Shown here in pieces: positions 1,401 to 55,886 of a stretch of 64,000 bases of DNA. The stretch covers positions 430,470 to 494,469 of the forward strand of contig NZ_CP047080.1 of NCBI RefSeq assembly GCF_030408595.1. Direction: 5' to 3'. The DNA is from Corynebacterium canis (GTDB taxonomy: Bacteria > Actinomycetota > Actinomycetes > Mycobacteriales > Mycobacteriaceae). Each line of letters starts with the position of its first letter. The stretch's first letter is position 1. Made by a program: the position numbers and the translations under genes. The notes under the pieces are model-generated. The model made no database searches. It had not been told where the DNA came from and worked only from the letters and a program-made list of their open reading frames with translations.

Positions 1401-2264
1401 GTGACTGATACTTTCCGCCTGCGCCTAGACCTTTCCTACGACGGCACGGATTTTCATGGGTGGGCTCGCCAAACGCGGCAAGGCAACGCGGATGAATTGC
1501 GCACAGTCCAGGGCACGTTGGAGGAGACGCTCTCGTTGATCCTGCGGGCCCCCGTCCAACTCACCGTCGCCGGGCGCACGGACGCCGGTGTACATGCGGC
1601 GCACCAGGTGGCGCATTGCGATGTCCCGGCGGGTTCGTTAGATCAGCGCAGCATCGACGGGGATCCCCGCCGGCTGGTTCGCCGCCTGGCCAGGATCCTC
1701 CCGGAAGACGTGCGGGTGCGCGATGTGTCCTTCGCCCCGCCCGGATTCGACGCCAGGTTTTCGGCGTTACGCAGGCATTATGTGTATCGGGTGACCACCC
1801 ACGAGGCCGGCGCCCTCCCCACGCGCGCCCGGGATACCACGGTGTGGCCCAAGCCGGTGGATATGCAGCGGATGCAGCGGGAGGCGGAATCGCTGCTCGG
1901 CCTCAATGATTTCGCGGCCTTTTGCAAGCACCGCCCGAACGCCACGACGCTTAGGGATTTGCAGGTGTTTTCCTGGCGGGATATTTCCACCGTTTGGGAG
2001 CCGGAATTATATGAAGCGCATGTTTGTGCAGATGCGTTTTGTTGGTCGATGGTGCGTTCGCTTGTCGGTGCGTGTTTGGCGGTGGGGGAGGGGCGTCGAA
2101 AAGCGGGGTTTGCTGCGGAATTATTGCAGGAGCGGGTGCGTTCTTCGGCGGTTCCGGTGGCGGCCGCGAAGGGTTTGTCCTTGGTCGGTGTGGACTATCC
2201 TGCGGACGAGTGTTTGGCGGAGCGCGCCACGGTAACGCGAAATGTGCGTACCTTGGAAGGTTGA
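1401..2264 (+). CDS. truA: tRNA pseudouridine(38-40) synthase TruA
   Basis: TruA makes pseudouridine at positions 38-40 of the tRNA anticodon arm. The motif [10 protein letters not shown], about 45-50 residues from the start, contains the catalytic Asp. The N-terminal [20 protein letters not shown] and the C-terminal [19 protein letters not shown] are also characteristic. I chose the GTG at 1401, giving 287 residues, because the family protein begins just before [11 protein letters not shown]; an in-frame TTG at 1365 would add twelve residues without family support. Synteny rpoA-rplQ-truA matches mycobacteria and corynebacteria. The 3' part contains one copy of the 13-bp word GGCGTCGANAAGC at 2092-2104. 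Confidence 0.93.
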
Positions 2265-2355
2265 CCACAATAAAGAGTTCTAACTAAATTTTTAGGGCGG
2301 CGGCTGAAAGCGTTTGGGCGCTGGTGTGAAACAGGTGAGGAGTTGGTAAGCCGAC

Positions 2356-4656
2356 ATGGGAATCTACGGTGCGGCGTTGGTGGCGGTGGCGGTGTTTACC
2401 GTTCCCGGTTTCCTGCTGACGTGGGTTTCTGGGCTGCGGGCTCCATGGGCGGCGGCGGCTGCGGTCCCGGCAAGTTTTGGAGTGTTCGGGTTCGCCGCGT
2501 GGTTTTACGGAATGACGGGGTATTCGTTTACCGGCACCGCAACGTGCATAATTTTGGCGGCCGCACTCCTGTTAGCCGCCCTGTGGCGCTTCGCGTTTTT
2601 TGCTTATCGACGCCGCGCCCGGCGCAACGCCCCACCCGCCCCCGCGCCCGATCCCACGAAACCCCAGGTGGTTGCCCCGAAACCGCGGTTCTGGGAAGCC
2701 TGGCAGCCGGGTAGTATTATCGACCCCCGCTGGGTGCTGCCCGGGCTCGGTGCCGTGGTGGGCGCGTGGCTGCTGATGAGCCGCTCGCTGAAATTGCTGG
2801 ATGAGACCCGTTACGGGATGGATAACATCTACCAAGGGTGGGATGTGCACTGGCACGCCAGCGTGATCCGCTTTATTTTGGAAACGGGTGTGGCGTCGCC
2901 GACGCGCATGGGGGAGCTGCAGAATCTGGAGAGTCAGGCGCCGCTGTACTACCCGTCCGCCTGGCACGCCGGTGCCTACCTGGTTGCGGAGTACGCCGGG
3001 GTGTCGCCGATCGCCGCCACGAATATCACGGCGATCGTGCTGCCCGCGCTGGTCTTGCCCTTGTCGGTGGGGTTGCTGGCGTGGCGGATTTTGAATAATC
3101 GGGGCTTGGCGGCGCAGATCGCGGCGGGCATCGCGGCCATCGCCGTGTATGGCAGCCCGGTGTTGTTCTGGATCGGTAACTATGTGGGGGCGTGGCCGTA
3201 TGTGGCGGCGGTAAGCATGGCGGGGATCGTGCTGGCGCTGTATATGTCCGTGCCGGCGGTCAAGGTGCGGGCGTTCGCGGCGGCGGTGACGTTTATCGGC
3301 ATGGTGCAGACGCACCCCTCGGCGGCCACCATCGTGATCCTGGGGCTGGCCTGCTGGTGGCTGCTGTGGTTGGTGTGGGCGCCCTCGAAACGGCCCACCA
3401 CGCGCAAACAGCATGTGCTGTATCGGCTTTCAGACCTCGGCATGCTGGCCGGTGCCGGCATCGTGGCGGTGGCGGTGTTCCTGCCGCAGCTGCTGGCCGG
3501 TGCCGGGCAGAGCGAAGAAGTGAAATCCTTTACCGCCACGGAAAACGTTTCCCGCACGCAATCCTGGTGGATGGCCATCGAAATGATGACCCGCCACACC
3601 GATGAAGCCCCCAATGCCTCCTGGGTGCTGTGGCTGGCCGGGACGGGCGCGGTGCTGGCCCTGCTGTGGCGCCGTAATCTGTGGCTGCCCGCCTGCTATG
3701 CGCTGAGCGTGTGGGTGACCGTGAACTCGCTGCGCCCCTTTGAAAAACCGTGGGGCGAATGGTTGGAAATGATCGGTGCCCTGCACTACAACACCGCGCA
3801 CCGCCTGATCATGCCGGTGGCCATGATCACCTTCGCCTACGTGGGCGTATGCATCGCCGTGGTGCTGCGGCTGGTGCTGCTGGGCCCGTTCCGGCGTTTC
3901 CACCAGGTTTCCGTGGCATTGTCCGTGGTCGCGGCGCTGATCGCCGGCTGGTGCATGGCGCAGCGGGTAACCAAAGACATGGAGGAGGGTTCCGATTGGG
4001 CCATTACCTCCGCCCGCGACGGCCGCATGGTCAGCGAAACGGACCTGAAGGCGTACCGCTGGGTGGCGCGGCAACCCCACGCCTACGATGGGCTGATCCT
4101 GTCCAACCCGGCGGAAGGCTCCGGGTGGGCGTACCCGTACAACAACCTGCCCATGCTGTTCCCGCATTACCTGTGGCCGGCCACGGGGACTAGTTCCGCG
4201 ACCAATATGGTGTATTGGCACCCCGACAAGCTCGGCATGGGCGCGAATGGGGATCCGGACGAGCTGAATCTCGCGGATATCGCCGCGCGGCGGCTGAATA
4301 TCACGTTTATTATCGTTTCCCCGCCGAGCTTTTGGGCCTTCCAGGAGCCGCTGCTGCCCATGGAGCAAGGGTTGTGGCACACCGCCGGCGTGACCCCGGT
4401 GTATAAAGACCGCCATGTGGTGGTGTTTGCCGTGAATGATCGCTTTACGGACGCCCAATTGAATCAGATGCGCGAGCGCGGCAATTCCCCGGAGCGGCTG
4501 CCGGATCTACCCACAAAGGGCTTGGAAGGCAAGGCGCTCACCCCCGAGGAATACGATCAGCCCTATTACCATCGCCCCATCAAGGCCCCCTCGCAACCCC
4601 CGAATATGGCTGATATCAACGATCACTGGCAGGAGCAGCCCGCCGCTTCCCATTAA
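2356..4656 (+). CDS. Large polytopic membrane protein, DUF6541 type
   Basis: This 766-residue integral membrane protein has an N-terminal block of hydrophobic helices, a loop near residues 155-200 containing YGMDNIYQGWDVHWHASVIRFI, many further membrane segments to about residue 540, and a soluble C-terminal part. That order and the Asp/His-containing first large loop resemble actinobacterial DUF6541 proteins, which look like GT-C glycosyltransferases acting outside the membrane. No catalytic function can be proved from sequence. It has its own Shine-Dalgarno (gaggag, about 12 nt before the ATG), lies 91 bp after truA and ends in a hairpin terminator. Envelope glycan assembly is a reasonable guess only. 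Confidence 0.8.
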   Translation: MGIYGAALVAVAVFTVPGFLLTWVSGLRAPWAAAAAVPASFGVFGFAAWFYGMTGYSFTGTATCIILAAALLLAALWRFAFFAYRRRARRNAPPAPAPDPTKPQVVAPKPRFWEAWQPGSIIDPRWVLPGLGAVVGAWLLMSRSLKLLDETRYGMDNIYQGWDVHWHASVIRFILETGVASPTRMGELQNLESQAPLYYPSAWHAGAYLVAEYAGVSPIAATNITAIVLPALVLPLSVGLLAWRILNNRGLAAQIAAGIAAIAVYGSPVLFWIGNYVGAWPYVAAVSMAGIVLALYMSVPAVKVRAFAAAVTFIGMVQTHPSAATIVILGLACWWLLWLVWAPSKRPTTRKQHVLYRLSDLGMLAGAGIVAVAVFLPQLLAGAGQSEEVKSFTATENVSRTQSWWMAIEMMTRHTDEAPNASWVLWLAGTGAVLALLWRRNLWLPACYALSVWVTVNSLRPFEKPWGEWLEMIGALHYNTAHRLIMPVAMITFAYVGVCIAVVLRLVLLGPFRRFHQVSVALSVVAALIAGWCMAQRVTKDMEEGSDWAITSARDGRMVSETDLKAYRWVARQPHAYDGLILSNPAEGSGWAYPYNNLPMLFPHYLWPATGTSSATNMVYWHPDKLGMGANGDPDELNLADIAARRLNITFIIVSPPSFWAFQEPLLPMEQGLWHTAGVTPVYKDRHVVVFAVNDRFTDAQLNQMRERGNSPERLPDLPTKGLEGKALTPEEYDQPYYHRPIKAPSQPPNMADINDHWQEQPAASH

Positions 4657-5128: not shown

Positions 5129-6412
5129 GTGGACTATCAGCGGATCCTATCGCCAACAACACAGGCCCAGGTCTCTGGCCATAGGTTTTTCATACGCCGC
5201 ATTGAGCATGGCTTGGTGCTCGGGGATACCCGCATGATCCACGATCCCCTGGGCCGTCGCCGCCGCGCCGCGGTGTTCGGCGGTGTGGCCTGTCTGCTCC
5301 TGTGCCTGGGTGCCGGGGCGCTCGCCTTGTTCGTCCCGCGCATTGACCCCGGCGCCGCCCCCATCGTGGTCGCCGAGACCGGCGCATTGTACGTTCGCAT
5401 AGACGATCGGCTGCACCCCGTGTTCAACCTTACGTCCGCACAATTGATCGTGGGCGCCCCCGAGCAACCCGCCCGCGCCGCCACCGAAGTCCTCGCCGAT
5501 ATGCCGCGCGGCATCCCCATCGGGCTTATCGACGCCCCCGGTGTGATCGACACCGACCCAACCCACCGTTGGCACTGGTCGGCGTGCGCTTTGGGCGAGG
5601 GAATCCAGGTGCGCGCCGCAGATCAGGTCCCGAAGGCCATCGCCGGTGGGGAGGCCATATTTACGGAGGCCGCCGGCATCTCCTATATTGTGACCTCGCA
5701 GGGCCGTCAGGCGCTCCCGCCCGGCGACACTCCGGAGGGCCGCGTGGTGCGCCGCCGCCTAGGCATTACCGCGAAAACCCCGGTGTGGAGCACGTCCCCG
5801 GAGATGTTGAATACCATCGCGGCGCAACCCGAGGTGCGCATCCCGCCCGCCGGTGAACTTTGGGAAACCGGCGACGGCGGGTCTTTCTTTGTGCACGATC
5901 AGGCCGTGGTGCGCCTGACCGATGTGCAGCGCGATATCCTCCTTGACCTGGGTTTCCGCAGCATCCCCGTCGATCGCGCCACCCCGCACAATTTCGATGA
6001 CGCTAAAGATTATGTCGAGCTCCCCAGCGCCGCACCGCGGACGTGGCTTGACCCCACCGAGCGCGCCGTGTGCGCCAGCGGTGAGGCTGGCGATATTTCG
6101 CTTATCGACGCCCCGTCGGCAGGCACCGCGCTCAGCGAAACGCTCAGCTATCACGGCCCCGGCCTTGGGCTCCCCGTGGATACCGGAAACGGTTGGATCG
6201 TGGTCAGCGATTACGGCACCCGGCACACCATTGCCGATAAGGAGGCCCTTGCGGCGCTCGGGATCGAGACGCCCGGCCCGGCCCCGTGGGCGATCATCAA
6301 GCTGTTGCCCGAGGGCATCGCATTGGACCGGGATCAGGCTCTCGCGCCCCTGGCTATCGGCGCCGACGCAACAAGAGCGCCGAAAGCGCAGCCCCAACCA
6401 GCAGCGCCATAA
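5129..6412 (+). CDS. eccB: Type VII secretion protein EccB
   Basis: EccB is a core subunit of the type VII secretion membrane complex, with a short cytosolic N-terminus, one transmembrane helix and a large extracytoplasmic domain. The N-terminal TTQAQVSGHRFFIRRIEHGL is the family signature, and one membrane helix lies near residues 48-68. Length is 427 residues, slightly shorter than mycobacterial paralogues. The GTG at 5129 has ggggag upstream. The 3' end overlaps the convergent mycP gene by 59 nt. Two copies of the GGCGTCGANAAGC word lie in this gene, read as LIDAP on the coding strand (5524, 6100). With eccD and eccC it forms an ESX-4-like machine. Confidence 0.92.
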   Translation: MDYQRILSPTTQAQVSGHRFFIRRIEHGLVLGDTRMIHDPLGRRRRAAVFGGVACLLLCLGAGALALFVPRIDPGAAPIVVAETGALYVRIDDRLHPVFNLTSAQLIVGAPEQPARAATEVLADMPRGIPIGLIDAPGVIDTDPTHRWHWSACALGEGIQVRAADQVPKAIAGGEAIFTEAAGISYIVTSQGRQALPPGDTPEGRVVRRRLGITAKTPVWSTSPEMLNTIAAQPEVRIPPAGELWETGDGGSFFVHDQAVVRLTDVQRDILLDLGFRSIPVDRATPHNFDDAKDYVELPSAAPRTWLDPTERAVCASGEAGDISLIDAPSAGTALSETLSYHGPGLGLPVDTGNGWIVVSDYGTRHTIADKEALAALGIETPGPAPWAIIKLLPEGIALDRDQALAPLAIGADATRAPKAQPQPAAP

Positions 6413-7508
6413 CCACCTGCAGGGCGCGGCCGGCGGCGGGGTTGGTGCGGGCGGTGGGAGGGGCGTCGATAGGCGGGGCGGCGGCGGGCCGGGTGAGTCC
6501 GGTGGGCAACCACGTTAAGGCGGCATAGGGATCAACATTGCCCGTGCCATGGGCCGCGCTACTAGTAATGCGATCGCGAATCTCGGCGGCGCTGGCCTCC
6601 GGGAAACGCTGCTTCACCAATGCCGCAGTGCCCGTGACCACCGGGGCGGCGAAACTCGTGCCCTCGAACGGCCTCGAACCACCTTGCGGATCGACGATCC
6701 CGCCCACAAACCCCGCATCGCGCGGGCTGGCGGCCACCTTCACATGGCCGGATGCCGCCACCTGCGGATGGTCTGCAAGCCCCGGGATGCTATACGGTGC
6801 GATATTGTGCGCGTCGCTGCTGGCGCTCACCGCCAGGACCGTCGGCGAATGCGCAGGTAGTACCGCCGAGTCCGGTTGGCATTCCGCCGTCACATTCCCC
6901 GCGGCCGCGACCACCACCACGTTTAACTCCTCCGCGCGGGCCAAAGCGCCATCCAGCACCGTTTCCATCGGTTGGCCGCGGCCCGGGACGCAAGACACCA
7001 CCGACACATTAATAATCTGCGCGCCACGATCGAGCGCCAGTTCTATCGCCTCCGCGAGGGAATCCAAGGTTCCCGCCGAGGATTCGGACGGCGCGAAACT
7101 GGAGGTTTGGCGGATGCTCAATAGCTCGATATCCGGGGCCACGCCGTCCAACGGGCCGCGACCGGCCAGGACTCCGGCCACCACCGTGCCGTGACCATCG
7201 CAATCCGTCAGGGCGCCCTCGCGCGCGCCATCCACAAGATCCGCGATCGGCTGCACCTGCGGCAAATACGGGTGCGGATAAATCCCCGTATCAATCACCG
7301 CCACCTTTACCCCGGCACCCGTGGCAAACTCATGCGCCCGCGCCCACGAACTCTTCGTTTCCGCAGGCAACGACTCCACCGGCAGCGCCTGCGGGCATTG
7401 CGCCTGCGGCAGCCCCTCCGCCGCCTGGGCGATCGGCGGGCGCAATAAATACACCAAGGCGCACAATACGATCAGGCCAGTCACCGCCGCCTTGCAACGA
7501 AAACTCAT
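6354..7508 (-). CDS. mycP: Type VII secretion-associated serine protease mycosin
   Basis: Mycosins are membrane-anchored subtilisin-like proteases needed for type VII secretion. The catalytic triad is visible as Asp in VAVIDTGIYPHP, His in DCDGHGTVVAGV and Ser in FEGTSFAAPVVTG. An N-terminal hydrophobic signal (AAVTGLIVLCALVYLL) and a C-terminal membrane helix followed by RRRR place the protease domain outside the cell. I start it at the ATG at 7508, which overlaps the eccD stop by 4 nt (ATGA), so the two are translationally coupled; the frame is open further upstream but that part lies inside eccD. The protein is 384 residues. Its 3' end overlaps eccB on the other strand. Confidence 0.93.
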   Translation of the reverse strand: MSFRCKAAVTGLIVLCALVYLLRPPIAQAAEGLPQAQCPQALPVESLPAETKSSWARAHEFATGAGVKVAVIDTGIYPHPYLPQVQPIADLVDGAREGALTDCDGHGTVVAGVLAGRGPLDGVAPDIELLSIRQTSSFAPSESSAGTLDSLAEAIELALDRGAQIINVSVVSCVPGRGQPMETVLDGALARAEELNVVVVAAAGNVTAECQPDSAVLPAHSPTVLAVSASSDAHNIAPYSIPGLADHPQVAASGHVKVAASPRDAGFVGGIVDPQGGSRPFEGTSFAAPVVTGTAALVKQRFPEASAAEIRDRITSSAAHGTGNVDPYAALTWLPTGLTRPAAAPPIDAPPTARTNPAAGRALQVVMALLVGAALSALLLRRRR

Positions 7509-9272: not shown

Positions 9273-12200
9273 GTGGGGAACACCGCATTTTCGCAGCGTC
9301 CGGGCGTGCGTGAACGTATCGTGCCGCAGTTAAGAATGTCCGAGCGCGATCCCGCTCCGCCCCTTCCCGCTGGCACTCTCACCCCGGATCCCGTCCCGCC
9401 AGCTGTGCGGCCTCAGCCGCAGCCGCTGCTGCGCATGCTGATGCCGTTGGTCATGGTGTCGGCGGTGGTAGGCATGGTTGCGTTAATGGTGATCACCGGC
9501 CGAGCGCACACCGGCGCAGGTTTGAATCCCGGCATGATTATGTTCCCGGTGATGATGGGTATGGGCATGCTCGCCATGTTCTTGCCCCAATCCGCGGAAG
9601 ACACCGATGAGCAGCGGCGAGTTTATATGCGCCACCTGGATGCACTCCGCGCGCAAGCAAACGAGAATGCCCACGCGCAGCGCGCCTACGAGCTGTATCG
9701 CGCCCCGGATCCTAGGCACCTCGTTTCGCTGGTTTCCACCCGCCGGCTGTGGGAGCGTGCCGCAGAGGACCCGGACGCCTTGCAGGTCCGCATCGGCCTC
9801 GGCCCGGCGGCGTTGTGCACTCCCGTCGAGGTCCCAGATTCGGGTGCCGCCGAGGATTTAGACCCTGTGTGTGCGGTGTCGCTTCGCCGCACGGTCCACG
9901 AGGTCGGTTCCGTTCCCATGGTTCCGGTTCTGATTCAGCTTGGGCCTTTCCGTTTCCTTGCGTTTTCCGGCCCGTCCGCCGCTGATGTTGCCCGCGCGCT
10001 GGTGGCGCAATTGGTGTTCCATCATGGCCCAGAGCTGGTTTCGGTGATGGCGTTGGGCGCGGGCTGGGAGTGGCTGAAGTGGCTCCCGCACACCCGTTCG
10101 CCGGAGGCGGCGTTGCACCGGGTGCTGGTGGTGGATTCGGCGACTGCGGACGGCGCGGAGGATTGCCTGGACGATCCTCGTTTTACCACCATCATCGACG
10201 TCGGTTCTCGCCCCCACAGCGAGCTCGGGGCCCGCGCACAGGCGGAGGGTTTGGCGTTTCATTGTGATGCTGACCTGCGTATTCATACAGTGGAGGGGGA
10301 GGAGGGCATAGGCGTGCCCGACTGCATGCGCGTCGCCGAGTCGCTGGTGTTGGCGCGCGCTCTCGCCGCTTGTCGACGTCCCGCCACCGCCGACCGCACC
10401 AACCTACCGCGCGATTTCCTCGGTCTGATTGGCCTGAGCCCCGCCGAGTTAGAACATTCTGACGGGTTGTGGGAGCATTGCGCCCGGTTTGGGCATTTGA
10501 CCGTTCCCATTGGCGTGGCGGAGGATTCCGGGGCCGCCGTGCTATTGGATCTAAAGGAATCCGCCTTGGGCGGCGTGGGTCCGCATGGCTTGTGTATCGG
10601 CGCTACCGGCAGCGGGAAGTCTGAGTTATTGAAAACGCTGGTGTTGGCATTGGCGGCCACCCATGATCCGGACGAATTGAATTTCGTCCTGGTGGATTTT
10701 AAGGGTGGCGCCACTTTCCTCGGCGTCGAACGTTTGCCGCACACCAGCGCCGTGATCACCAATCTTGCGGAGGAGCAGGCCTTGGTGGATCGCATGCATG
10801 ATGCCATCAGCGGGGAAATGAATCGCCGCCAGGAGGTGCTGCGGAAGGCCGGCAAGTTCGCCAATGTTACCGACTATAACGCGGCGCGCGCGGCTGGCCG
10901 CTCCGATCTTGCCCCGTTGCCGTCCCTGGTGATCGTGGTGGATGAGTTTTCGGAGCTGCTCGGCCAACACCCCGATTTCGCGGATTTGTTCGTTGCCGTG
11001 GGTCGGCTTGGGCGGTCCCTGCATATGCACCTCTTGTTGGCCAGCCAGCGCCTGGAGGAGGGCCGGCTGCGGGGTTTGGATTCGCATTTATCGTACCGCA
11101 TCGGTTTGAAAACCTTTTCTGCCGCCGAGTCCCGCCAAGTGTTGGGTGTCGTGGATGCGTATCATCTGCCGGCTCGCCCGGGCGCGGGCTATATGCGTAC
11201 CGATTCGGATTCGTTGGTGCGCTTTCAGGCCGCGTACGTTTCCGGTCGGTTGCCCGCGTTGCCTGTCGCGGGCGTCGATAAGAAACTTTCGGTGCGGCGT
11301 TTCCATCAGTGGATCGTGCCGGAAGTGGAGGACGCTCCCCGTAAGCCGCAGTATCACCCGACCGCCATGCTTCTCGACGCCGTGGTGGCCGCCGCCCAAC
11401 GCTCAGCTCGCGGCAAGCACGCGCACCGGATTTGGTTGCCGCCCCTGCCCGCGGAGATCCCATTGGCCAGTATCGTCGCGCGCGTCGGGCATCTCGGCTG
11501 CGTCCTAGGGCTGATCGACCGCCCTTTTCAGCAACGCCAGGACCCCTTTATCCTGCAGTTTTCGGGATCCGGAGGGCACGCCGCGCTGTGCGGTAGCCCA
11601 CGCACGGGAAAGACCACCGCCCTGCGTTCCTTGGTGCTGTCGCTGGCGCTCACGCATGGCACCGATCAGCTGCGTTTTTATATTTTGGATCTGGGTGGCG
11701 CCGAGGGCCTGGCCGCGCTGGCGAAGCTGCCGCACGTGGCGGGCGTCGCTGGGCGCAAGGACCCCGAACGCGTGCGGCGCGTGGTGGATGAGGTGCTCGG
11801 TTTGGTGAGCGTGCCGGAGCCGCGCCATACCTTTTTGGTGGTCGATGGCTGGCATGTGATCGCCAACGAGTTCGATGATCTGGTGGAGTCCGTTACCCGC
11901 ATCGCCGCCGATGGATTGGCCGCGCGCGTGCACTTGGTGGTGAGCACTGCGCGGTGGACCAATATTCGGCCGGCTGTGCGAGACCTGCTGCAGCAACGCG
12001 TGGAGCTGCGGCTCGGCGAGCCGATGGATTCCTTGATTGATAGGAAGGCCCAGCTGAAGCTGCCGAATCTGCCGGGGCGCGGGCTGACCGCAGAGGGGGA
12101 GCCCATGCTGATCGCGCTCACCGGGAATCAGGACGTGCACCACGTGTGCCAGCAGCTTGCCGACCAGCCCCGGGTGCCCGCCTTGCGTATCCTGCCGCAG

Positions 12201-12914: not shown

Positions 12915-13849
12915 TGAACATCGTGGTGTTGGATACGGCGACGGTCTTCGAGGCGGATGAAACTGCGTACAGGTACGACCTCACAGCCAGCGCCGTCGCG
13001 GAAGACGGCGGGGAAGCCGCCAAGGAGATCGTGGAACAGGCCCGTGACCTGCTGCAGGAGCGATGGCCCCACGAGGAGGTGGTTATCGACGCCCCTGCAA
13101 ACGTCGTCGCGGTGCTCACCGCGGCGTTTGCCGGGGTTGGGGTATTGGTGAAGGAGGATGTGGAAAAGCCACCGATGCAACCAAGCGCACCGAAACGCCT
13201 TAATATTCCCCGTCCACGTAATCCCCGCAGACCAGCGTGGTTTATGCCCGCGATCGGGGCAGTGGTGTGCTGTGTAGGTGTGGCCTGCTGGTGGGGTACG
13301 CGGCCGGAACCGCAATTGGGCGGTAGCGTGGATTCAGCCACAGCGAGGCCCTCGTCGGAGACCGTGCAGCCCAGTGCGCAACCAGTTGCGGAGTTGCCGG
13401 GGGTGGAATTCGCTCACGGTGCGTTGCGGGTGCGGCTGCCCGAAGGGTTCCGCTTGGAGCAGCGGGAGGATGGGGCGTTGACCGCTACCGGTCCGGATTC
13501 GGAGCTGCGGATCCTATTGGCGGCGGATCCCGTGTATGGCGTGAATTCGGACGCAGTGTATCGGGAGGTGGAGCTGATGGTCCAGCGCGACCCGACCCTG
13601 GAGGTGCGCGAGGGGCAGGGGTTTCGGGATCACGCGGTGCGCACGATTGACTATCGGGAAACGCCTGGGGACGGCTCGACGGTGAGCTGGGTTACGTGGG
13701 TGGAGTCGGATCACCAGTTTTCCATGGGTTGCCATACGCGGGCGGAGCCGACGATTCCGCAGCTCGCGGCGTGTCGGATGGCCGCAGGCACCCTGCGGAT
13801 CCACCTCGATGGGGGTGGCCCGGGGTCGGAGGGAACCCCGGGAGGTTGA
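12914..13849 (+). CDS. Type VII secretion-associated protein, Rv3446c type
   Basis: This 311-residue protein has a ~108-residue cytosolic N-terminal part, one membrane helix (AWFMPAIGAVVCCVGVACWWG, about residues 109-130), a low-complexity linker and an extracytoplasmic domain beginning near GVEFAHGALRVRLPEGF. That architecture and its position between eccC and the esx pair match the type VII secretion-associated family exemplified by Rv3446c of M. tuberculosis ESX-4. Its function is not known. The GTG start overlaps the eccC stop by 1 nt, implying coupled translation. Confidence 0.8.
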   Translation: MNIVVLDTATVFEADETAYRYDLTASAVAEDGGEAAKEIVEQARDLLQERWPHEEVVIDAPANVVAVLTAAFAGVGVLVKEDVEKPPMQPSAPKRLNIPRPRNPRRPAWFMPAIGAVVCCVGVACWWGTRPEPQLGGSVDSATARPSSETVQPSAQPVAELPGVEFAHGALRVRLPEGFRLEQREDGALTATGPDSELRILLAADPVYGVNSDAVYREVELMVQRDPTLEVREGQGFRDHAVRTIDYRETPGDGSTVSWVTWVESDHQFSMGCHTRAEPTIPQLAACRMAAGTLRIHLDGGGPGSEGTPGG

Positions 13850-19796: not shown

Positions 19797-20543
19797 CTCT
19801 TCCCGCATTTTTGGTTTTTTGCCCCGGTTGCTGGCGTGGTGCCGCAATTGGCGTTGATTGGCGGCGGCTTACAGGGGCTTTTCGACGCCACGTCTCCCCG
19901 CCGTGACACCGTAGTGTGGGACCTTGGCTTGGGCTTGCTGTTTGGCAGTATTCTGTGGGCCGATAAATTCTTCCTGATCGCGTTGTATTCGAATCAGATC
20001 GACGTTGTCACCGTGTATGTGGGTTTGATCCCGGTGGTGATCGGCTTGGCCGTGTTTTTCAGCTCCCAGTACCCGTTGATCAGGCAGAATGTGGATTCGT
20101 TGATGTTGGGGATCCACCGAACGCCGCTGTCCGGGCTGCGGAAGTCCATCGATCTGACGCGCAATAATGTGGCGCGGTGTTTCGCGTTGACGCTGAGCGT
20201 GGCAGCGGTGTCTTCGCTGGGGGTGTTGCTGGTTACCGCCATGGTTGGCATGAAGCACGATGTGTTGAGCCTGCTGCTCTTTTTGGTGCCGATCCCGCTG
20301 CTGGCGTTCCACCTTGCGGTGTTCCAGTTGACGCAGTTTTATATGCACCGCGAGGCCGCCATCTATTCGGGTGCGTTTTGCCTGGCGGTCACGTTGGTGT
20401 TTGTGTTCGCGGGCGCGATCCCGGGCCTGGTGTTTGCCATGTTGGCGGCCGTGGTGTCGGCGGTGGTTGCGGTACGCAGCGCCTCGGATCGAATGAAGGA
20501 TGCCCCGTTTGAGATGTTCTGGCAGAAAGCGGTGAAGTGGTGA
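19797..20543 (+). pseudogene. PelG-like exopolysaccharide exporter, 3' part
   Basis: This is the continuation of the gene broken at 18085. From 19800 the frame reads FPHFWFFAPVAGVVPQLALIGGG and then ILWADKFFLIALYSNQ, with about seven more membrane helices and a cytosolic end DAPFEMFWQKAVKW. An internal GTG or ATG (e.g. 19836) could in principle restart translation of a fragment, but half of the transporter would be missing. The stop overlaps the next gene, so coupled translation of the glycosyltransferase may also be reduced. Confidence 0.72.
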
Positions 20544-35112: not shown

Positions 35113-35125
35113 GGCGTCGATAAGC
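35113..35125 (+). repeat. GGCGTCGATAAGC word, intergenic copy
   Basis: Exact copy in the glmS upstream region, in a G-rich context. Confidence 0.7.
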
Positions 35126-37087: not shown

Positions 37088-37100
37088 GCTTTTCGACGCC
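37088..37100 (-). repeat. GGCGTCGAAAAGC word, intergenic copy
   Basis: A-variant of the word on the minus strand, starting 2 nt after the glmS stop and lying just before its terminator. Confidence 0.65.
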
Positions 37101-39783: not shown

Positions 39784-41028
39784 ATGGAGCCGTTGTTTCC
39801 CGCAGAACTGGTAGACCCGCTTTTAAAGGAAAGCTTTGCCCAAAATGGGGTTGGGGTTCTGGATCGCGGCAAAAAGGTCACCGGGCAACTCATCCCCATT
39901 GAGCGCAGAATTGCCGATGTCGTAGTGGCCGCAATGAGCGGCGGCAGACACGTGCTCTATCCCCGCCGCGTGCTCCTCGTGGCGGGCTCCGGCTGGCGCG
40001 GCAGCGTCGGCTTGATCAGCGCCGTGGAGCTCTTGGGCCGCGGCGTTGCCGTCGAGGTGTTTTTCGCGGCGGGCGCTTCAAGGCAATTACGCAGCCGGGA
40101 ATTTCAGCGCTACATTGACGCTGGCGGCAAGGTGTTTAACTGGCTGGAGGCCTTTGACACCGACTTTATCGGCGCCGAATTCGACCTCGCCGTGAACGCG
40201 CTGGACCTCGGCGATGAGTTCGAATACCACACGGTGTTGTCGCTCCCCACCGTGGCCATCGGGGTGCCTACCGCGCAGTGGAAGGCGGAGTGCTCGGTGG
40301 CCATCGGATGGGCCACCGTGGAGCACATGCAATTCGGCGGCCGCGTGTTTATCGCTCAAGTACCCGTGGAAAGCCCGGGCCGTTCGGAGACGTACGGGGT
40401 GCGCGTGGCCCGCCGCGATGCCGCGTATTTGGGCATTGAAGGGGTCAAGGAGCTGCGGGAACCCCGCCTGCAATTCATTTCGCGCAATCGTGTTTCGGTG
40501 TTTCCGTCCCGCATTGGGATCGTCGGCGGGACGCCGCATCGCTCGGCCGCGCATGTGCTTCCGGCGTTGGCGGCGCAGCGCTTCGCGGGCGCGGAGGTAA
40601 GCATTGTGGGCCATGTAAAGGAGTCGCCGACCGGGATTCCGGAGGCGCAGGTTGTCGGCACATTAGAACAGATTCGCGGCTCCGGCCCCGATTGTTGGGT
40701 GATTGTCGACGGCGCGAGCCCCGCCCAAGTCGCGGAAGTGAAACGTAGCGGGGCGTCCTGGTGGGACGGGCGTGGCGACCGCATAATCAGCCCAGACTTC
40801 CAGGTATTTCCCGGCGCCATCACCACCATTCGCAGCGCGGACCAAACCATCGTGGTGGATACCGAATTGCAGCGGGTGCTCGGCCCAGGGGCACAGGATG
40901 TCCTGCTGGGGCTGCTCGCCGTGAACGACAATCCGGTGTTGGCGGTCCAGGCATGGGCGGAGGCCGTTGCTGCGGTGGGTGAGCCTTGGCGCTTTGTCTC
41001 CGGGAGCCGCGTCGTCGATAAGCTATAG
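39784..41028 (+). CDS. Degenerate paralogue of the NAD(P)H-hydrate repair enzyme Nnr (probable pseudoenzyme)
   Basis: 414 residues. It can be aligned by eye to the authentic Nnr at 47503-48918. In the epimerase-like half, VLLVAGSGWRGSVGLISAVEL matches ILVLAGSGGNGGDALYAATEL, and FDLAVNALDLGD matches YALVIDGITGIG. In the dehydratase-like half, RIGIVGGTPHRSAAHVLPALAA matches GVVGICAGSTQYPGAGIMCSIAA, and LGPGAQDVLLGLLA matches TPGSGDVLSGLAG. The key GNGGD and GSGD motifs are lost, so both activities are probably gone. It may be a regulator, scaffold or NAD(P)HX sensor. Its 3' end overlaps the convergent MerR gene by 6 nt. Confidence 0.68.
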   Translation: MEPLFPAELVDPLLKESFAQNGVGVLDRGKKVTGQLIPIERRIADVVVAAMSGGRHVLYPRRVLLVAGSGWRGSVGLISAVELLGRGVAVEVFFAAGASRQLRSREFQRYIDAGGKVFNWLEAFDTDFIGAEFDLAVNALDLGDEFEYHTVLSLPTVAIGVPTAQWKAECSVAIGWATVEHMQFGGRVFIAQVPVESPGRSETYGVRVARRDAAYLGIEGVKELREPRLQFISRNRVSVFPSRIGIVGGTPHRSAAHVLPALAAQRFAGAEVSIVGHVKESPTGIPEAQVVGTLEQIRGSGPDCWVIVDGASPAQVAEVKRSGASWWDGRGDRIISPDFQVFPGAITTIRSADQTIVVDTELQRVLGPGAQDVLLGLLAVNDNPVLAVQAWAEAVAAVGEPWRFVSGSRVVDKL

Positions 41029-42560: not shown

Positions 42561-44089
42561 CATGAGCAGTGCAGGTCGCGGCGTCGATAAGCGATGGCGC
42601 CTACGAGCGCGCAGCCGAAGCCGATGCACACAAGCGTCACCGCCGCAAACGTATGTTCGTGCGCTGGCCAGGCGAACAGGGAGGCGTCTAGGAGCCAGGA
42701 GGGGAAATCCATAAGCTCGCCGAAAAAGGTAATAAAGCCGGACGCCGCAACCGGTACCCACGCTAGTGCTGACCAGCGCAAAGAGCAGCCCGTACACAGC
42801 GTGGCAAACCCGGCGGCCGCGACGGCTGGGGGCGATTGGTCGAGGATTGCTTGCCATGCGGCTTCGAACACCTCTGCGTCGGTGGAGGCGTCGGCAACAA
42901 TGGCGGAAAGGGGAGCGATAATGGCGACGATGCACAGTGTGACCGCCACCGCCGTGCCGAAATCGCTAAGCAGCGGGCGATGGCGCGGATTCCCATTAAC
43001 CACCTCTTGCGTGACGACGCCGCTCCGCTCATCGCGCGCCGTAGCCAACGCGAGCTGCACCGCGGCGCAGGCAATCAGGATGCCCACGGGTGTGGCGATA
43101 AAGCGCAAATAGCTCGCCTCGGTCTCGGCATCGCCGGTGATGGATTGCATAAGTGCGGCGGTATTTGGGGACCCTTCAAGCAGGGAATTCATCTCGCCGG
43201 TGAGTGCGAATAGCGCGAGGGTGATGGCGGCGACGGCTACGAACCAATTTGCGATGACGCTGCGCTGGTTTCGCACGCGGAACAGGTACGGGGTGCGGAG
43301 CGTCCAGGTGGCATGGAGATCGCGCGGAACCAACAGCGGCGCGTAGCAGACCAGCGTAATCCCGAGCGCGGCGGCGAGCGGCCAGGCGTCGTTAAGTTCG
43401 AACGGTTTGACTAGGTCGCGCCAAGCGAGCGGGGAGCCCCAGCGCAGGCGGGGGAAATCCCACACGTCCGCAATCACGCGGAGGAAAAACGCCGCAGCCA
43501 GGGCAATCAACGCCGCGCTGCGCGCCTGGCGGGCGGTCTGGGACCATTGCGCGCACAGCATGCCGATGCCGCCGAAACACCCCGTGGCCAGCGTCACCGT
43601 CTTGCCGAGCAGCAGGCAACCATAGAAATCGAAACCCTCCAGGTGAAGGTTCTGCGCATACAACGCGCACGTGCTGGCCGCGCCCAAGAGGCAACACGTG
43701 AGCAATACCGTGGCCGCCGCCGCCAGGTTCGGGGTCGCCCGGCCCATGCCCGTCACGCGCACCAACTCGAGGATCCCGTCTTCTTCGGCGGCGCGCGTGA
43801 GGCGGATGGCAAGGAGCAGGGACATGATGCAGCCCAGGAGGATCACCCACATCCCGGTCTCCCACATGGTGAAACTGGGGATGGTGAGCGGGTCCGGGAC
43901 CACGCCGTACAGCACCCGCAGGCCGAGCTGGCCGCGCATCGGATCGGCGAGGCGTTTCAGCTCCTCGGCGTTCGGGTACGTGTCGTGGTACGCGTGCGGA
44001 ACCACCGCAATCAGGGCGGTCAGCGGTACAATCCACGCGGCGAGGAACCAGCGGGTGGAACGGAAATTACAGCGGATAAGCTCGAACAT
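42560..44089 (-). CDS. ABC-2 type exporter permease 2
   Basis: 509 residues with about twelve membrane helices in two homologous halves; each half opens with RCNFRSTRWFLAAWIVPLTALIAVVP-type helices. The cytosolic loop RLTRAAEEDGILELVRVTGMGR is conserved with permease 1 (RLTRAMEEDGIVELIRVTGISN), so the two are paralogues. It has no ATPase of its own and probably shares the one at 46513-47367. I start at the ATG at 44089, six nt after the -10 of a MerR-type promoter. The exported substrate is unknown. Confidence 0.82.
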   Translation of the reverse strand: MFELIRCNFRSTRWFLAAWIVPLTALIAVVPHAYHDTYPNAEELKRLADPMRGQLGLRVLYGVVPDPLTIPSFTMWETGMWVILLGCIMSLLLAIRLTRAAEEDGILELVRVTGMGRATPNLAAAATVLLTCCLLGAASTCALYAQNLHLEGFDFYGCLLLGKTVTLATGCFGGIGMLCAQWSQTARQARSAALIALAAAFFLRVIADVWDFPRLRWGSPLAWRDLVKPFELNDAWPLAAALGITLVCYAPLLVPRDLHATWTLRTPYLFRVRNQRSVIANWFVAVAAITLALFALTGEMNSLLEGSPNTAALMQSITGDAETEASYLRFIATPVGILIACAAVQLALATARDERSGVVTQEVVNGNPRHRPLLSDFGTAVAVTLCIVAIIAPLSAIVADASTDAEVFEAAWQAILDQSPPAVAAAGFATLCTGCSLRWSALAWVPVAASGFITFFGELMDFPSWLLDASLFAWPAHEHTFAAVTLVCIGFGCALVGAIAYRRRDLHCS

Positions 44090-47502: not shown

Positions 47503-48918
47503 ATGCGCCCCCTTTACACAGTTGAACAGGTCCGTGCCGCGGAGGCGCCTCTCCTCGCGGCGCAGCAACGCCCAGACGAACTCATGCGCAAGGCCGCGCA
47601 CCAGGTCGCCCGCGCCGCCCAAGACATGCTCGATAGTAAGTATGGTCGAATCCTGGTGCTCGCGGGTTCGGGCGGAAACGGCGGAGACGCGCTCTATGCG
47701 GCCACCGAACTTAAAGCCGCCTCGCTCGAAGCGGTCCTGATGGGCGGCCGCGTCCACCAGCCCGCGTTAGCTGCGTTCGAGGCTGCGGGAGGGACGGTCG
47801 TCGAAAAGCCGCTAGGTGAATACGCGCTGGTTATCGACGGTATTACCGGTATCGGTGGTACGGGAGCGCTGCGCGATTGGGCGGCGGGGATAGTCGCAAG
47901 CATTGATGCGCCGGTGCTTTCCGTGGATATCCCCTCGGGCGTGGATGCGGATACCGGTGCCACGCATGGGGCGCACGTCAAGGCTCGCCGCACCATTACC
48001 TTCAGCGGACTGAGATACGCACATGCGTTTGCCTCGGCGTGCGGCGAGGTGACCGTGGCCGACATCGGACTGGAGTTCGAACCCGCCGACGCCTTTTTGT
48101 GGAACGCCCTCACGGATAACCTCCCGCTAAAGCTTGAACCCGGCGAATCCGACGATAAATACACCGGCGGCGTCGTGGGCATTTGCGCTGGCAGCACGCA
48201 ATACCCCGGCGCCGGGATCATGTGTTCGATCGCTGCGGTGCGGGCCACCCCCAGCATGGTGCGCTATATCGGCGATATCTGCCCGCTCCCCGAAATCGTC
48301 CCGCACCCCAGCATCGCCGAAGCCGCCCGCGTGCAAGCCTGGGTTTACGGCCCTGGGCGGGGCGAACGCGACGAACTCGCCGAATTGCTCGCCCGCCCGG
48401 AAGCGTTGCTTATCGACGCCTCCGGGCTTACCGTACTCGCCCGCGACGCCGCACTCCGCGAGCAGCTGATCGAACGCAAATTCCCCACGGTGCTGACGCC
48501 GCACGTCGGTGAGTTCGTACAACTGGTCGAGGGGTTCCGCTTGCCCGTAAACCTCGAGGATTGGGTCGGTTCGGCCCGCGCGCTCGCCGTGCACACCGGC
48601 ACCACCGTCCTGCTCAAGGGCCGACGCACGGTGATCACCGACGGCGTGAATCCCACGAACATTGTGGACCTCGGCACCTCCTGGGCCGCTACCCCCGGAT
48701 CCGGGGATGTGCTTTCCGGCCTCGCCGGCGCCTGGCTGGCCACCCCGCTGCTGGACAAATGGGGTGCCGTCAAGGTGATGACCCTCGCCGCGCTTATCCA
48801 CGGGCAGGCCGCGGAAATCGCCGCCCGCACCGAATACGGCCACGCGCCGACCTCAGCCTCGCTGATCATCGACGCGATCCGCCCCGCTACTGCTCGAGTA
48901 TGTGGTCCCGCTGGGTAA
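47503..48918 (+). CDS. nnr: Bifunctional NAD(P)H-hydrate repair enzyme (epimerase and dehydratase)
   Basis: 471 residues. The N-terminal YjeF_N domain (MRPLYTVEQVRAAEAPL, AGSGGNGGDALYAATEL) epimerises NAD(P)HX; the C-terminal ribokinase-like domain (GTTVLLKGRRTVITDG, TPGSGDVLSGLAGAWLA) dehydrates the S-form using ADP or ATP. The catalytic Asp is in GSGD. A TAACCT lies 6 nt before the ATG, with aggagt just at the start, so it may be leaderless. Its 3' end overlaps a small convergent membrane-protein gene. Confidence 0.95.
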   Translation: MRPLYTVEQVRAAEAPLLAAQQRPDELMRKAAHQVARAAQDMLDSKYGRILVLAGSGGNGGDALYAATELKAASLEAVLMGGRVHQPALAAFEAAGGTVVEKPLGEYALVIDGITGIGGTGALRDWAAGIVASIDAPVLSVDIPSGVDADTGATHGAHVKARRTITFSGLRYAHAFASACGEVTVADIGLEFEPADAFLWNALTDNLPLKLEPGESDDKYTGGVVGICAGSTQYPGAGIMCSIAAVRATPSMVRYIGDICPLPEIVPHPSIAEAARVQAWVYGPGRGERDELAELLARPEALLIDASGLTVLARDAALREQLIERKFPTVLTPHVGEFVQLVEGFRLPVNLEDWVGSARALAVHTGTTVLLKGRRTVITDGVNPTNIVDLGTSWAATPGSGDVLSGLAGAWLATPLLDKWGAVKVMTLAALIHGQAAEIAARTEYGHAPTSASLIIDAIRPATARVCGPAG

Positions 48919-49081: not shown

Positions 49082-50197
49082 ATGAACTTGCTCACCATCA
49101 CCATTGATTTAGACGCCATCGCGCACAACACCCGCCTGCTCAAACAAAAGGCTGCGGGGGCGCAATTAATGTGCGTGGTCAAGGCTGATGGATATAATCA
49201 TGGTGCGGCGCGGGTGGCAGCAACGATGGCCGCCCACGGGGCCGACCAGTTCGGCGTGGCCACGTTGGCGGAGGCGTTGGCGCTGCGGGAAGCGGGAATT
49301 ACACAGCCGATCCTTGCGTGGATTTGGACGCCCGATCAGGACGTCGTAGCTGCTCTTGATGCTGGCATCGAGCTGGGTGTTCCGAGCCTTGCCCACGCCG
49401 CGCACTTGGTGTCCCTGCGCCGCCCCGCCCGCGTGAGCGTGAAATTGGATACGGCGATGAACCGGTCAGGCATTGACGTTGCGGAATGGGATACCGCGTT
49501 CCGCATGCTTATCGACGCCCCGCACCTCACCGTCACCGGACTCTTCTCCCATCTAGCATGCGCGGACGAGCCGGAAAACCCCCTCAATGATCAGCAGGTT
49601 GCGCTGTTCCGCAAGGCAATCGACCAAGCGCGCGGTGCGGGCCTGGATGTGCCCGTGAATCACCTGGTCAACTCCCCGGGGTTGCTGACCCGGCCGGACG
49701 CCTACTTTGATATGGTCCGCCCGGGTATCGCGCTCTACGGGTACAGCCCGATCCCGGGTTTGAGTGCGGCTGCGGAAGGGCTGCGCCCCGCCATGACCTG
49801 GGAGTCCCGGATTACCGTGGTGAAAGAGATCCACGCTGGTGAAGGCGTGAGCTATGGGCAAACCTGGCGCGCGCCAAGCGATGGATACACCGCCGTGGTC
49901 GCCTGCGGTTACGCCGACGGCCTGCCCCGAGCCCTGCAAGGATCGCTCGAAGTTTCGATCAATGGCCGCCGCTACCCGCAGGTTGGCCGCGTCTGCATGG
50001 ACCAAATCGTCCTGTGGCTAGGCGCTGGTGGGGAAGAGGCTCCGCCTGTCCAGCCCGGCGACCGCGCCATTCTGTTCGGCCCCGCCGAGACCGGCGCCCT
50101 GACCGCCGATGATTTCGCCGCCGCCCTGGGCACCATAAACTATGAAGTGATCTGCAGCCCACACGGCCGCACCACCCGCGCCTACCTGGGAGGATAA
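49082..50197 (+). CDS. alr: Alanine racemase
   Basis: Alr supplies D-alanine for peptidoglycan, using PLP. The PLP lysine is in MCVVKADGYNHG and the second catalytic Tyr in GEGVSYGQTWRA; VACGYADGLPRAL and RVCMDQ are further hallmarks. It has 371 residues. CACAAT about 8 nt before the ATG suggests leaderless transcription. The tsaE gene follows 1 nt after the stop, an arrangement conserved in actinobacteria. Confidence 0.96.
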   Translation: MNLLTITIDLDAIAHNTRLLKQKAAGAQLMCVVKADGYNHGAARVAATMAAHGADQFGVATLAEALALREAGITQPILAWIWTPDQDVVAALDAGIELGVPSLAHAAHLVSLRRPARVSVKLDTAMNRSGIDVAEWDTAFRMLIDAPHLTVTGLFSHLACADEPENPLNDQQVALFRKAIDQARGAGLDVPVNHLVNSPGLLTRPDAYFDMVRPGIALYGYSPIPGLSAAAEGLRPAMTWESRITVVKEIHAGEGVSYGQTWRAPSDGYTAVVACGYADGLPRALQGSLEVSINGRRYPQVGRVCMDQIVLWLGAGGEEAPPVQPGDRAILFGPAETGALTADDFAAALGTINYEVICSPHGRTTRAYLGG

Positions 50198-52025: not shown

Positions 52026-52673
52026 GTGCTCGTTCTTGCGATTGATACCTCTACGCCGACCGTGGTGTCGGGTTTGGTGCGCGATGGCCACACGATTGCG
52101 CAGCGTATTCTTCCGGATTGCCGCCATCACAATGAGTCCTTGGTGCCCGCGATTCAGCAGTGTCTCGCGGAGGCCGCGGCGGGGTTCGCCGAGCTTGATG
52201 CCGTGGTTGTGGGTTGCGGTCCCGGCCCGTTTACGGGGCTGCGCGTGGGCATGGTGACCGGTGCGGCGTTGGCGGATGCCCTGCAGATTCCGGTGTACGG
52301 GGTTTGTTCCCTCGACGCGATCGCACAGCGTATCGACGCCGCGACGCTGCTGGTGGCCACGGATGCGCGGCGTCGAGAAGTATATTGGGCGAGGTATATA
52401 AACGGGGAGCGGGTCGTGGGCCCTGAGGTTGCCGCCCCGCAGAGTTTGGTGGAGCCCGCGGAGGTGGTGAATGTGCCTGCGCGCTATGCGGATGCGATCC
52501 CAGCGGCGGGCCGACGCGTGGACATGCACCCCACCCCGGAATCGTTGGTTTCCGTTGCTGTGTTCGACGGCTCGCCTGCGCCGTTGACGCCGCTTTATTT
52601 ACGACGCCCCGACGCGAAAGAACCGAAGCCGAAGCCCAAGAGCCCTGCCGTCCCCGACGTGGTGATCGACTAG
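52026..52673 (+). CDS. tsaB: tRNA t6A biosynthesis protein TsaB
   Basis: 215 residues. TsaB partners TsaD in t6A37 synthesis. LVLAIDTSTPT starts the ASKHA fold, and VGCGPGPFTGLRVGMVTGAALADAL is the family signature. The GTG at 52026 matches the usual N-terminus; upstream codons in frame belong to the esterase gene on another frame. The C-terminal Lys/Pro stretch is corynebacterial. The stop overlaps rimI by 1 nt. Confidence 0.94.
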   Translation: MLVLAIDTSTPTVVSGLVRDGHTIAQRILPDCRHHNESLVPAIQQCLAEAAAGFAELDAVVVGCGPGPFTGLRVGMVTGAALADALQIPVYGVCSLDAIAQRIDAATLLVATDARRREVYWARYINGERVVGPEVAAPQSLVEPAEVVNVPARYADAIPAAGRRVDMHPTPESLVSVAVFDGSPAPLTPLYLRRPDAKEPKPKPKSPAVPDVVID

Positions 52674-54162: not shown

Positions 54163-54170
54163 CCCCGGAG

Positions 54171-55001: not shown

Positions 55002-55049
55002 GGTTGAAAACCTTACATAACGCCCATGACACCCCGCGCTCATGTTCGA

Positions 55050-55886
55050 TCAGTAGCAGTCCCAGTAATAGGCCACCTCGCTGAAGTCCCACCGCTCAAG
55101 GTCTTCGGGGCGGATAAAAAAGGTGGCAAACCCGCAATCGCCCCATTGGATGCGGGGCTTATTGCGCGGCCCGTGATTCGAACGGATCTGCAGCAGGGGC
55201 CGGTGGCTATGGCAGAAGCCTACGGGATCTCGCTGCGCAAACGCGGCCCAACCGCCACCAAAAACGGCGGGTGGGCCGATGTGGGGCAGTTCAGACGTGG
55301 CGTCGATAAGCCCGTTGCTGACGCTGGGGTCGGACCACACCATGTTTACAAAGGTGCTGTCGTGCCGGCTGGGGTATTGGTCGAAAGGCTTGGCGGACAG
55401 CTCGAAAAAGCCGTTTTCAATCGTGTTGGTTTGGGTTTTAATCCCGCCCAGCAGCTGGCCGTTTAAGTATTCCTTGACGGGGATATAACGGACGCAGGAG
55501 TTGTGCGGGTTCGCGTAATTGTGCGTATCAAAGTCTGCGTTGTCGATGCCGAAGTAGCCGTGATCGCCGATAAAAAACTGCAGCAGGCCCTCGGAGCGGA
55601 AACCCTCCAGCGGCGGCATATCCGCCAAATTTATCTGGGCCACAAAGAGCATGCGCCGCCCGAGCCGGTCGCGCGGCCAGGGGTGTTCCTTGGTAATAAA
55701 GGCGGCGCCGCCGAGGCGGGACCCCGTCGGGTTGGCCACGATTCGCTTGGGTATGTGGTTTTCATTTTGCACGGTCATGCCGTGGGGAAATAGCGCCGCC
55801 ACGCGCCGCGCGTGGGATTGCAGGTAGGGCCGGTAGGGCTCGAGGTTTGCCGGTAGTTTCACCTGGAATGCTTCATCAGTGCTCAT
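55050..55886 (-). CDS. DUF1963 (YwqG-like) protein B
   Basis: 278 residues. [41 protein letters not shown] matches DUF1963 and aligns along its length with protein A, so the pair comes from tandem duplication. The start ATG is at 55886. A GGCGTCGATAAGC copy lies within it (55299-55311) on the non-coding strand. Confidence 0.85.

Follow-up and report, generated by a model that had tools for sequence, protein, structure and literature searches.

The 64-kb window analysed here (positions 430470-494469 of the Corynebacterium canis genome, a single contig of 3,045,310 bases) carries type VII secretion genes (EccB, EccC) at its left end, 5129-12914, and has dispersed along its length the 13-bp word GGCGTCGANAAGC that is the subject of this work. 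The word occurs as 15 exact copies, seven on the + strand and eight on the - strand, compared with 0.01 expected from dinucleotide shuffling, and none of 100 shuffled sequences reached 15. Five additional copies differ from the T form by one mismatch other than those of the N variants (Table 1). An earlier note on this DNA had listed 14 copies divided 7/7 between the strands and judged that far fewer than one would arise by chance. The judgement on chance stands, as do all ten T-variant coordinates in an exact-match scan and the three A-variant coordinates, but a G variant had been overlooked, such that the strands are nearly rather than exactly balanced, and the C variant starts 10 bp from where it had been placed. 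The four one-mismatch copies listed previously were recovered together with a fifth at 52328. Using a crude in-house gene caller to judge the placement of the copies in the window, we also recovered the encoded peptides described previously (LIDAP, ASISK, AYRRR and GRRKA) and the three sites described as intergenic.

Table 1. Exact and one-mismatch copies of the word in the 64-kb window.
Feature	Position	Strand	Basis or remark
Word copy GGCGTCGAAAAGC	2092..2104	+	Exact match
Word copy GGCGTCGATAAGC	2602..2614	-	Exact match
Word copy GGCGTCGATAAGC	5524..5536	-	Antisense in EccB-like gene; host codons LIDA
Word copy GGCGTCGATAAGC	6100..6112	-	LIDA frame
One-mismatch copy GGCGTCGATAGGC	6462..6474	+	Mismatch scan
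One-mismatch copy GGCGTCGATAAGA	11271..11283	+	Mismatch scan
Word copy GGCGTCGAGAAGC (G variant)	11369..11381	-	Same frame as LIDA copies, LLDA; absent from earlier list
One-mismatch copy GGCGTCGATAACC	13081..13093	-	Mismatch scan
Word copy GGCGTCGAAAAGC	19877..19889	-	Same frame as LIDA copies, LFDA
Word copy GGCGTCGATAAGC	22709..22721	+	Exact match
Word copy GGCGTCGATAAGC	29101..29113	+	Outside called genes
Word copy GGCGTCGACAAGC (C variant)	33881..33893	+	Earlier listed as 33891
Word copy GGCGTCGATAAGC	35113..35125	+	Outside called genes
Word copy GGCGTCGAAAAGC	37088..37100	-	Outside called genes
One-mismatch copy GTCGTCGATAAGC	41011..41023	+	Mismatch at tolerated position 2
Word copy GGCGTCGATAAGC	42580..42592	+	Exact match
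Word copy GGCGTCGATAAGC	48408..48420	-	LIDA frame
Word copy GGCGTCGATAAGC	49507..49519	-	LIDA frame
One-mismatch copy GGCGTCGATACGC	52328..52340	-	Mismatch at tolerated position 11
Word copy GGCGTCGATAAGC	55299..55311	+	LIDA frame, gene on -

The C. canis genome as a whole contains 406 exact copies of GGCGTCGANAAGC (201 forward, 205 reverse), compared with one forward and no reverse copies of the same word read backwards, which served as the control. A relaxed form of the word, GNCGTCGNNAAGC, is present 780 times (401 + / 379 -), or about once per 4 kb, compared with 37 copies (19 + 18) when reversed. The genome-wide count that the earlier note had proposed as a check is therefore far over chance, and the same outcome was obtained with the Markov comparison it had also proposed: 72 exact copies were found, compared with 0.18 expected under an order-3 model, in a 464-kb sample comprising the window and 500-900 kb of the same genome (the latter being the 400-kb sample referred to below). 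Changing one position at a time in the 464 kb revealed that G1, C3, G4, T5, C6, G7 and A10 are strict, any alternative letter being found in 0-2 copies, and that positions 2, 8, 9, 11 and 12 are tolerant. The word is asymmetric rather than palindromic. Its bare core, GNCGTCGNNA, occurs 353 times in the 464 kb (109 times when reversed), but 316 of these copies end in G, making the core a poor marker and GNCGTCGNNAAGC a good one. Likeness between the 72 exact copies extends for about three bases upstream and one downstream, followed by a weak G bias; the 5' flank, previously described as G-rich, is better termed C/G-rich, with G at -2 in 56 of 72 copies and C at -3 in 49. Since strong likeness ends within ~3 bp of the word, the word is not part of a larger repeat or element.

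By the same gene caller, 16 of the 72 exact copies (22%) lie outside called genes, compared with 18% of the sequence being non-coding, showing no preference for intergenic DNA. Of the 56 coding copies, 34 are antisense in a single frame that reads Leu-Ile-Asp-Ala when position 9 is T, and the coding copies use five further reading frames; the word sits mostly where its cost to protein is small. In the 400-kb sample, exact copies are split 28 + / 29 - while GC skew is positive in 19 of 20 blocks, indicating that the word has no polarity in this region, as the earlier note had argued in setting aside a KOPS-like motif. The spacing of 204 relaxed sites in the 400 kb, some of which are background, fits an exponential distribution, and the 100 forward copies listed out of 201 are uniformly distributed over the first 1.38 Mb (Kolmogorov-Smirnov p 0.51). 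In Neisseria, inverted pairs of uptake words serve as terminators; a role of this kind was rejected for the present word, given 7 gaps of <100 bp compared with 10.2 expected.

Two other dispersed sequences were observed. TGTGTAAAAA is over-represented, with 7 copies in the window (16367, 16795, 30864, 30960, 63201, 63225 and 63595) and 27 in the 400 kb; its copies, which are sometimes in facing pairs, are possibly regulator sites. The palindrome TCTGCCT[CG]AGGCAGA occurs at 22 places in the 400 kb (e.g. G000:C1:536130, 692392 and 899482) and at none in the window, and is REP- or terminator-like.

In a survey of the family (101 genomes from 31 genera), high word counts were found in Corynebacterium only, with the other genera having 0-25 copies. 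Across 242 Corynebacterium genomes, designated below by G numbers, the copy number of the strict word varies between 0 and 779. When these genomes were tallied by hand, 169 carried mainly GNCGTCG (the G dialect), 17 carried mainly GNCATCG (the A dialect) and 56 carried neither, defined as <90 copies of both GNCGTCGNNAAGC and GNCATCGNNAAGC. In the 169 G-dialect genomes GNCGTCGNNAAGC is dominant, with at least 95 copies, while of the A-dialect genomes 14 have GNCATCGNNAAGC as a common word (398-1090 copies) and 3 have it at a middling level (167-179); these 17 genomes hold 12-146 copies of GNCGTCGNNAAGC. The two forms were also observed in ~20-kb loci (about 13-21 kb) of named species using the pattern G-N-C-R-TCG-NN-A-M-GC, with the CATCG form accounting for 11/11 matches in C. 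phoceense and 9/10 in C. macginleyi, and the CGTCG form for 12/15 in C. striatum and 13/14 in C. yonathiae; nine other named Corynebacterium loci had 0-3 matches each. Dialect variation extends to positions 2 and 8 in the small samples available (40-120 kb for most species): GTCGTCG makes up 18 of 19 words in the sampled stretches of G121, and GNCGTCGT makes up 12 of 16 in those of G071. K-mer counts in stretches of G125 gave zero copies of the C. canis word and the related word GGCATCGGCAAGC instead. By IMP dehydrogenase, C. canis is nearest to a metagenome-assembled genome (92%) and to C. meridianum and C. pygosceleis (89%). A relative, G237, has just 62 relaxed words compared with the 780 of C. 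canis, and the neighbours of G237 on the TadA tree described below, G108, G201 and G211, have 60, 83 and 55. As separate observations, the low-word genome G240 has an excess of GTGGCGTCGA and GGCGTCGGAA in the stretches L167-L170, which is maybe a further dialect, and overlapping 12-mers at 600-680 kb of G105 (L179-L182) spell GTGAGCGGGGATGTTCC 13-14 times in a CRISPR-repeat-like manner.

The two dialects were compared at orthologous sites by aligning 200 kb of the A-dialect genome G101 with 223 kb of the G-dialect genome G315, which yielded 117 kb of alignment at 79% identity. Of the 99 A-words in G101, 62 align, falling on a G-word in 36 cases, an A-word in 5, another CATCG or CGTCG in 6 and other sequence in 15. 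Conversely, 53 of the 81 G-words in G315 align, falling on an A-word in 37 cases, another CATCG in 4, other sequence in 12 and CGTCG in none. Identity is 0.16 at word position 4 and 0.79-0.98 at the other twelve positions. The flanks have a mean identity of 0.81. In 27 of the 36 switches, however, position 4 is the third base of a codon, and its identity is thus more fairly judged against the 0.52-0.64 printed for the least conserved flank positions. The 36 in-step switches, which occur in two reading directions, comprise 27 synonymous changes (Asp), 8 Val/Ile changes and one Arg/Cys change. For this pair of species, the comparison of silent sites that the earlier note had recommended thus supports its proposal that selection acts on DNA rather than on protein.

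Where both species encode Asp, GAC corresponds to GAT in 27 of 27 codons within words among the in-step switches, compared with 356 of 801 outside words; the 36 switches were chosen because they switch, and the unselected figure is that 0 of 53 words retain CGTCG. Outside words, the GAC codons of G315 are GAC in G101 in 445 of 1002 cases and GAT in 356, and its GTC codons are GTC in 460 of 942 cases and ATC in 77. CATCG is retained in 370 of 820 cases outside words and becomes CGTCG in 82, compared with 5 retained and 36 switched among the 62 within words. That dozens of orthologous sites, both silent and amino-acid-changing, have undergone the same one-base change together points to a trans-acting reader of altered specificity. 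Such a reader, together with selection or drive acting on the DNA, is almost certainly needed to account for these data.

The history of the dialects was examined on a TadA tree of 72 chosen rows (28 G, 16 A and 28 without the word), a single-gene tree with 19 open forks and midpoint rooting. Dialect states change 9 times on this tree compared with 33 times in shuffles, and the label "none" changes 7 times, which could be gains or losses since the tree does not distinguish them. Nine word-less species form an outer branch under this rooting. The G-dialect genomes G133, G184, G204, G277 and G315 are nested in the A-dialect part of the tree, and G114, G247 and G307 also lie inside this part. The nested five hold 98-129 A-words, while at least 90 A-words are found in just 15 of the 169 G-dialect genomes. 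We read these five as having probably reverted from the A to the G dialect, with their A-words as apparent relics of a switch made recently, a reading taken from a one-gene tree.

DNA uptake sequences are scarce in phage DNA. Terminase-family matches were found in 3 of the 50 genomes searched, at five places. Four 20-kb stretches of prophage structural genes contain no words compared with 26.8 expected (7.1, 7.1, 6.3 and 6.3), although this expectation is the mean density of the genome, the sample is small and composition was not controlled. The fifth stretch contains 7 words compared with 8.2 expected, all of them beyond the recognised phage genes, which end at ~4.1 kb, with the first word at 6.4 kb. 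A phage collection of 1502 records included 39 from Corynebacterium, among which those listed represent one phage (two records, host C. xerosis).

Taken together, these data suggest that a trans-acting DNA-binding factor recognises the word throughout the genome, and we consider it moderately probable that the word serves as an uptake tag for kin DNA resembling the DNA uptake sequences (DUS) of Neisseriaceae. We infer that a receptor recognises the word, that the word functions in uptake and that DNA enters by way of the Tad pilus, drawing on the likeness to Neisseriaceae dialects, the lack of polarity, the random spacing, the patchy presence and the absence from phage DNA. A DNA-uptake word was among the candidates listed by the earlier note, and the dialects, the patchy presence and the prophage absence favour it, short of proof. 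According to this model, DNA with a word in the right dialect would attach to the cell surface, where a minor Tad pilin might bind it, and would then cross the envelope to ComEA and ComEC before recombining into the chromosome. Each transfer would overwrite a broken word with a working one, and words would thereby multiply and track shifts in receptor specificity.

The C. canis genome encodes machinery of this type. Its Tad locus (L191) comprises ssd, tadA, a T2SSF-type tadB, a DUF4244 Flp-like pilin, TadE and an Rv3654c-like TadF, and the genome also carries ComEC, DprA and two ComEA-sized HHH frames. The latter are neighbours (G000:C1:2360494-2360667 and 2361325-2361507), and a second DprA-type match is present at G000:C1:214704-215270. 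Across the genus, a T2SSE-family (Tad-type) ATPase was found in 239 of 242 genomes, 235 of them over the cut-off, and ComEC in 241 of 242. DprA matched in all 76 chosen genomes, as did PF12836, although the top PF12836 hit is in most genomes a frame of ~780 aa distinct from ComEA; among the matches listed, a ComEA-sized HHH frame was found in 75 of the 76. Of 64 genomes chosen for being low in words or odd, 56 had a TadA match over the cut-off of the model. Since these genes are present in word-less species too, they are compatible with the uptake reading but do not support it, and the presence or absence of the ATPase, ComEC, TadA, ComEA or DprA was rejected as the explanation of which species bear the word because none of them separates the groups. 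TadA tends to be more diverged in word-less species, but this trend is confounded by kinship, since nine of these species form one outer branch. Weak DprA matches were observed in the word-less genomes G127 (60 bits) and G210 (129 bits), and G127 also has the weakest ComEA-sized match listed; competence has perhaps decayed in these two, although two such cases among the 42 word-less genomes inspected do not amount to evidence. In another actinobacterium, Micrococcus luteus, PMC6667448 terms tadA1, tadA2 and comEA competence-related genes.

Among the components of the Tad pilus, TadF emerged as a candidate reader of the word. In a comparison of five A-dialect with five G-dialect species across one dialect boundary, the outer half of TadF is 60% identical between dialects and 89% identical within them, whereas the corresponding values are 88 and 97 for TadA, 89 and 98 for Flp, and 89 and 97 for TadE. 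Between G101 and G315, TadF is 73% identical and TadE 88% identical, compared with a median of 85% for 89 proteins in those stretches. Of the four Tad proteins compared across the dialect boundary, the greatest divergence was seen in the outer half of TadF (Tad loci L202 and L253 in G101 and G315), which contains two cysteines in the sequences printed. The word-binding receptor in Neisseria is ComP. As a weak lead, TadF may be a fast-changing, exposed minor pilin that acts as the uptake receptor. Scores of at least 100 bits for TadE were obtained in 15 of the 16 rows with the A dialect (a contig end truncates the locus of the remaining one), in 25 of the 28 with the G dialect and in 11 of the 28 lacking the word, although the model was biased by being seeded from word-bearing species only. 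An A-clade-like TadE is present in the five nested G-dialect species.

Several observations weigh against the uptake reading. TadE, considered as the receptor, does not follow the G and A dialects and was rejected as a simple dialect marker, while the TadF lead comes from a single dialect boundary, and identity between G101 and G315 is also low for the TadC-like frame (70%) and TadB (76%). Word-less species carry the competence genes just as often, and some word-bearing species appear to lack a component: the one genome without a ComEA-sized frame, G226, bears the word, the A-dialect genome G282 has no ComEC match, ComEC is split into two matches, and perhaps broken, in the word-bearing G113, G189 and G325, and no TadA over the cut-off was found in G193, G264, G265, G286, G294 and G300, which are drafts of 30-480 contigs. 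No excess of close word pairs was detected among the 204 relaxed sites in the 400 kb. The density of 780 relaxed words in 3.05 Mb is below that of Neisseria, for which PMC3630211 gives about 1900 10-mer DUS per genome. Among the best 12-20 matches in open-licence PMC papers, we found neither natural transformation of Corynebacterium nor the word itself described, and none of three papers containing a 12-base stretch of the word was on Corynebacterium by its title. Finally, much of this evidence would also be accounted for by a protein that binds the chromosome and can change its specificity.

Such a protein is the main rival to an uptake tag. The word could be the site of an intracellular chromosome-organising or nucleoid protein whose specificity drifts between species, with its sites following. 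A long strict core with tolerant positions is typical of any specific DNA-binding protein, co-ordinated dialects would be equally expected, and the presence of the word in chromosomes and its absence from the four prophage stretches also fit. However, the site is non-palindromic, non-polar and, in the 400 kb, unclustered beyond chance, and its patchy presence (56 of 242 genomes with <90 copies of either dialect, 7 changes of the label "none" and 62 copies in G237) is odd for a housekeeping function. We therefore regard this alternative as unlikely, if still a serious one.

A Chi-like recombination word that steers an end-processing nuclease, such as the mycobacterial end-processing enzyme AdnAB, would fit the many non-palindromic copies per chromosome and their absence from the four prophage stretches. 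Known Chi words are, however, shorter and strand-biased, in contrast with the even strand distribution and single-sign GC skew found here (28 + / 29 -; 19 of 20 blocks), and we consider this explanation improbable. A HIP1-like iterated word, generated by a mutational, repair or methylation process with no receptor, seems very improbable. Although it would account for a word so extremely over-represented in coding DNA and there mostly in a single frame, a process acting throughout the cell would be expected eventually to mark prophages as well, in contrast with the four empty stretches, and the dialect switch between G101 and G315 is concentrated in the context of the word. Lastly, an artefact of composition or codon usage, or a set of mobile-element relics, could appeal to the one frame common among coding copies and to a bare core that is not telling alone, but it is already refuted by the counts of 406 full words to one reversed, by a word at background in 56 of 242 congeners and, for relics, by likeness that ends within ~3 bp with no larger element.

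If the uptake reading is correct, a large Gram-positive genus in which we found no report of natural transformation would take up DNA with discrimination for kin. Species of the same dialect would be predicted to exchange genes and species of different dialects not to, adding the word to DNA would be a genetic tool, and the dialects would offer a natural series of switches for finding the uptake receptor by co-evolution. If the word is instead the site of a chromosome protein, a genome-wide binding code has been rewritten in step at orthologous sites. The chances seem to us about even that the full picture holds, namely that an uptake-word system of its own exists in Corynebacterium, a Gram-positive genus with an outer mycomembrane, that Tad possibly gates this system and a fast-changing minor pilin possibly reads it, that most species of the genus are sorted into exchange dialects, with switches and reversions that rewrite hundreds of sites genome-wide, that this is the first such system known to us outside Neisseriaceae and Pasteurellaceae, and that transformation is widespread and unrecognised in these commensals.

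Among known chromosome words that act on DNA, neither KOPS and Chi nor matS and HIP1 match the present word, owing to their polarity or their symmetry. KOPS, which are read by FtsK, are strand-biased toward the terminus, and Chi is strand-biased relative to replication and read by an end-processing nuclease, in contrast with the lack of strand bias of the Corynebacterium word in the 400 kb. The matS site is a palindromic 13-mer confined to the terminus region, whereas the present word is asymmetric and its listed forward copies are evenly spread over the first 1.38 Mb. HIP1 of cyanobacteria, a palindromic octamer (GCGATCGC) whose abundance varies between species, is likewise a short word hugely over-represented in the coding DNA of a clade, but the Corynebacterium word is 13 bp long, asymmetric and dialect-switching. 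The uptake signal sequences of Pasteurellaceae are genome-wide, tied to competence and preferentially placed in genes, with A/T-rich flanks; the Corynebacterium word is also genome-wide, but it is a different word in a different phylum, and its 72 exact copies have a G-rich 5' flank and no A/T-rich flanks.

The closest resemblance is to the DUS of Neisseriaceae. DUS occur in both orientations, and the Corynebacterium word is similarly balanced genome-wide (201/205) with no polarity in the 400 kb. Its host belongs to the Actinomycetota and has a mycomembrane. For Neisseriaceae, PMC3630211 describes about a thousand to several thousand copies and species dialects that share a core and are one or a few bases apart; a single species has two dialects at once, and five family members have none. 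Like DUS, the Corynebacterium word is short and non-palindromic, is present in hundreds of copies far above chance, forms species dialects around a conserved core, is scarce in prophage DNA (0 compared with 26.8 in four stretches) and is accompanied in the C. canis genome by genes for a pilus and for ComEA, ComEC and DprA. It differs from DUS in the word itself, its lower density, the Tad type of the pilus genes found and the phylum of its host.

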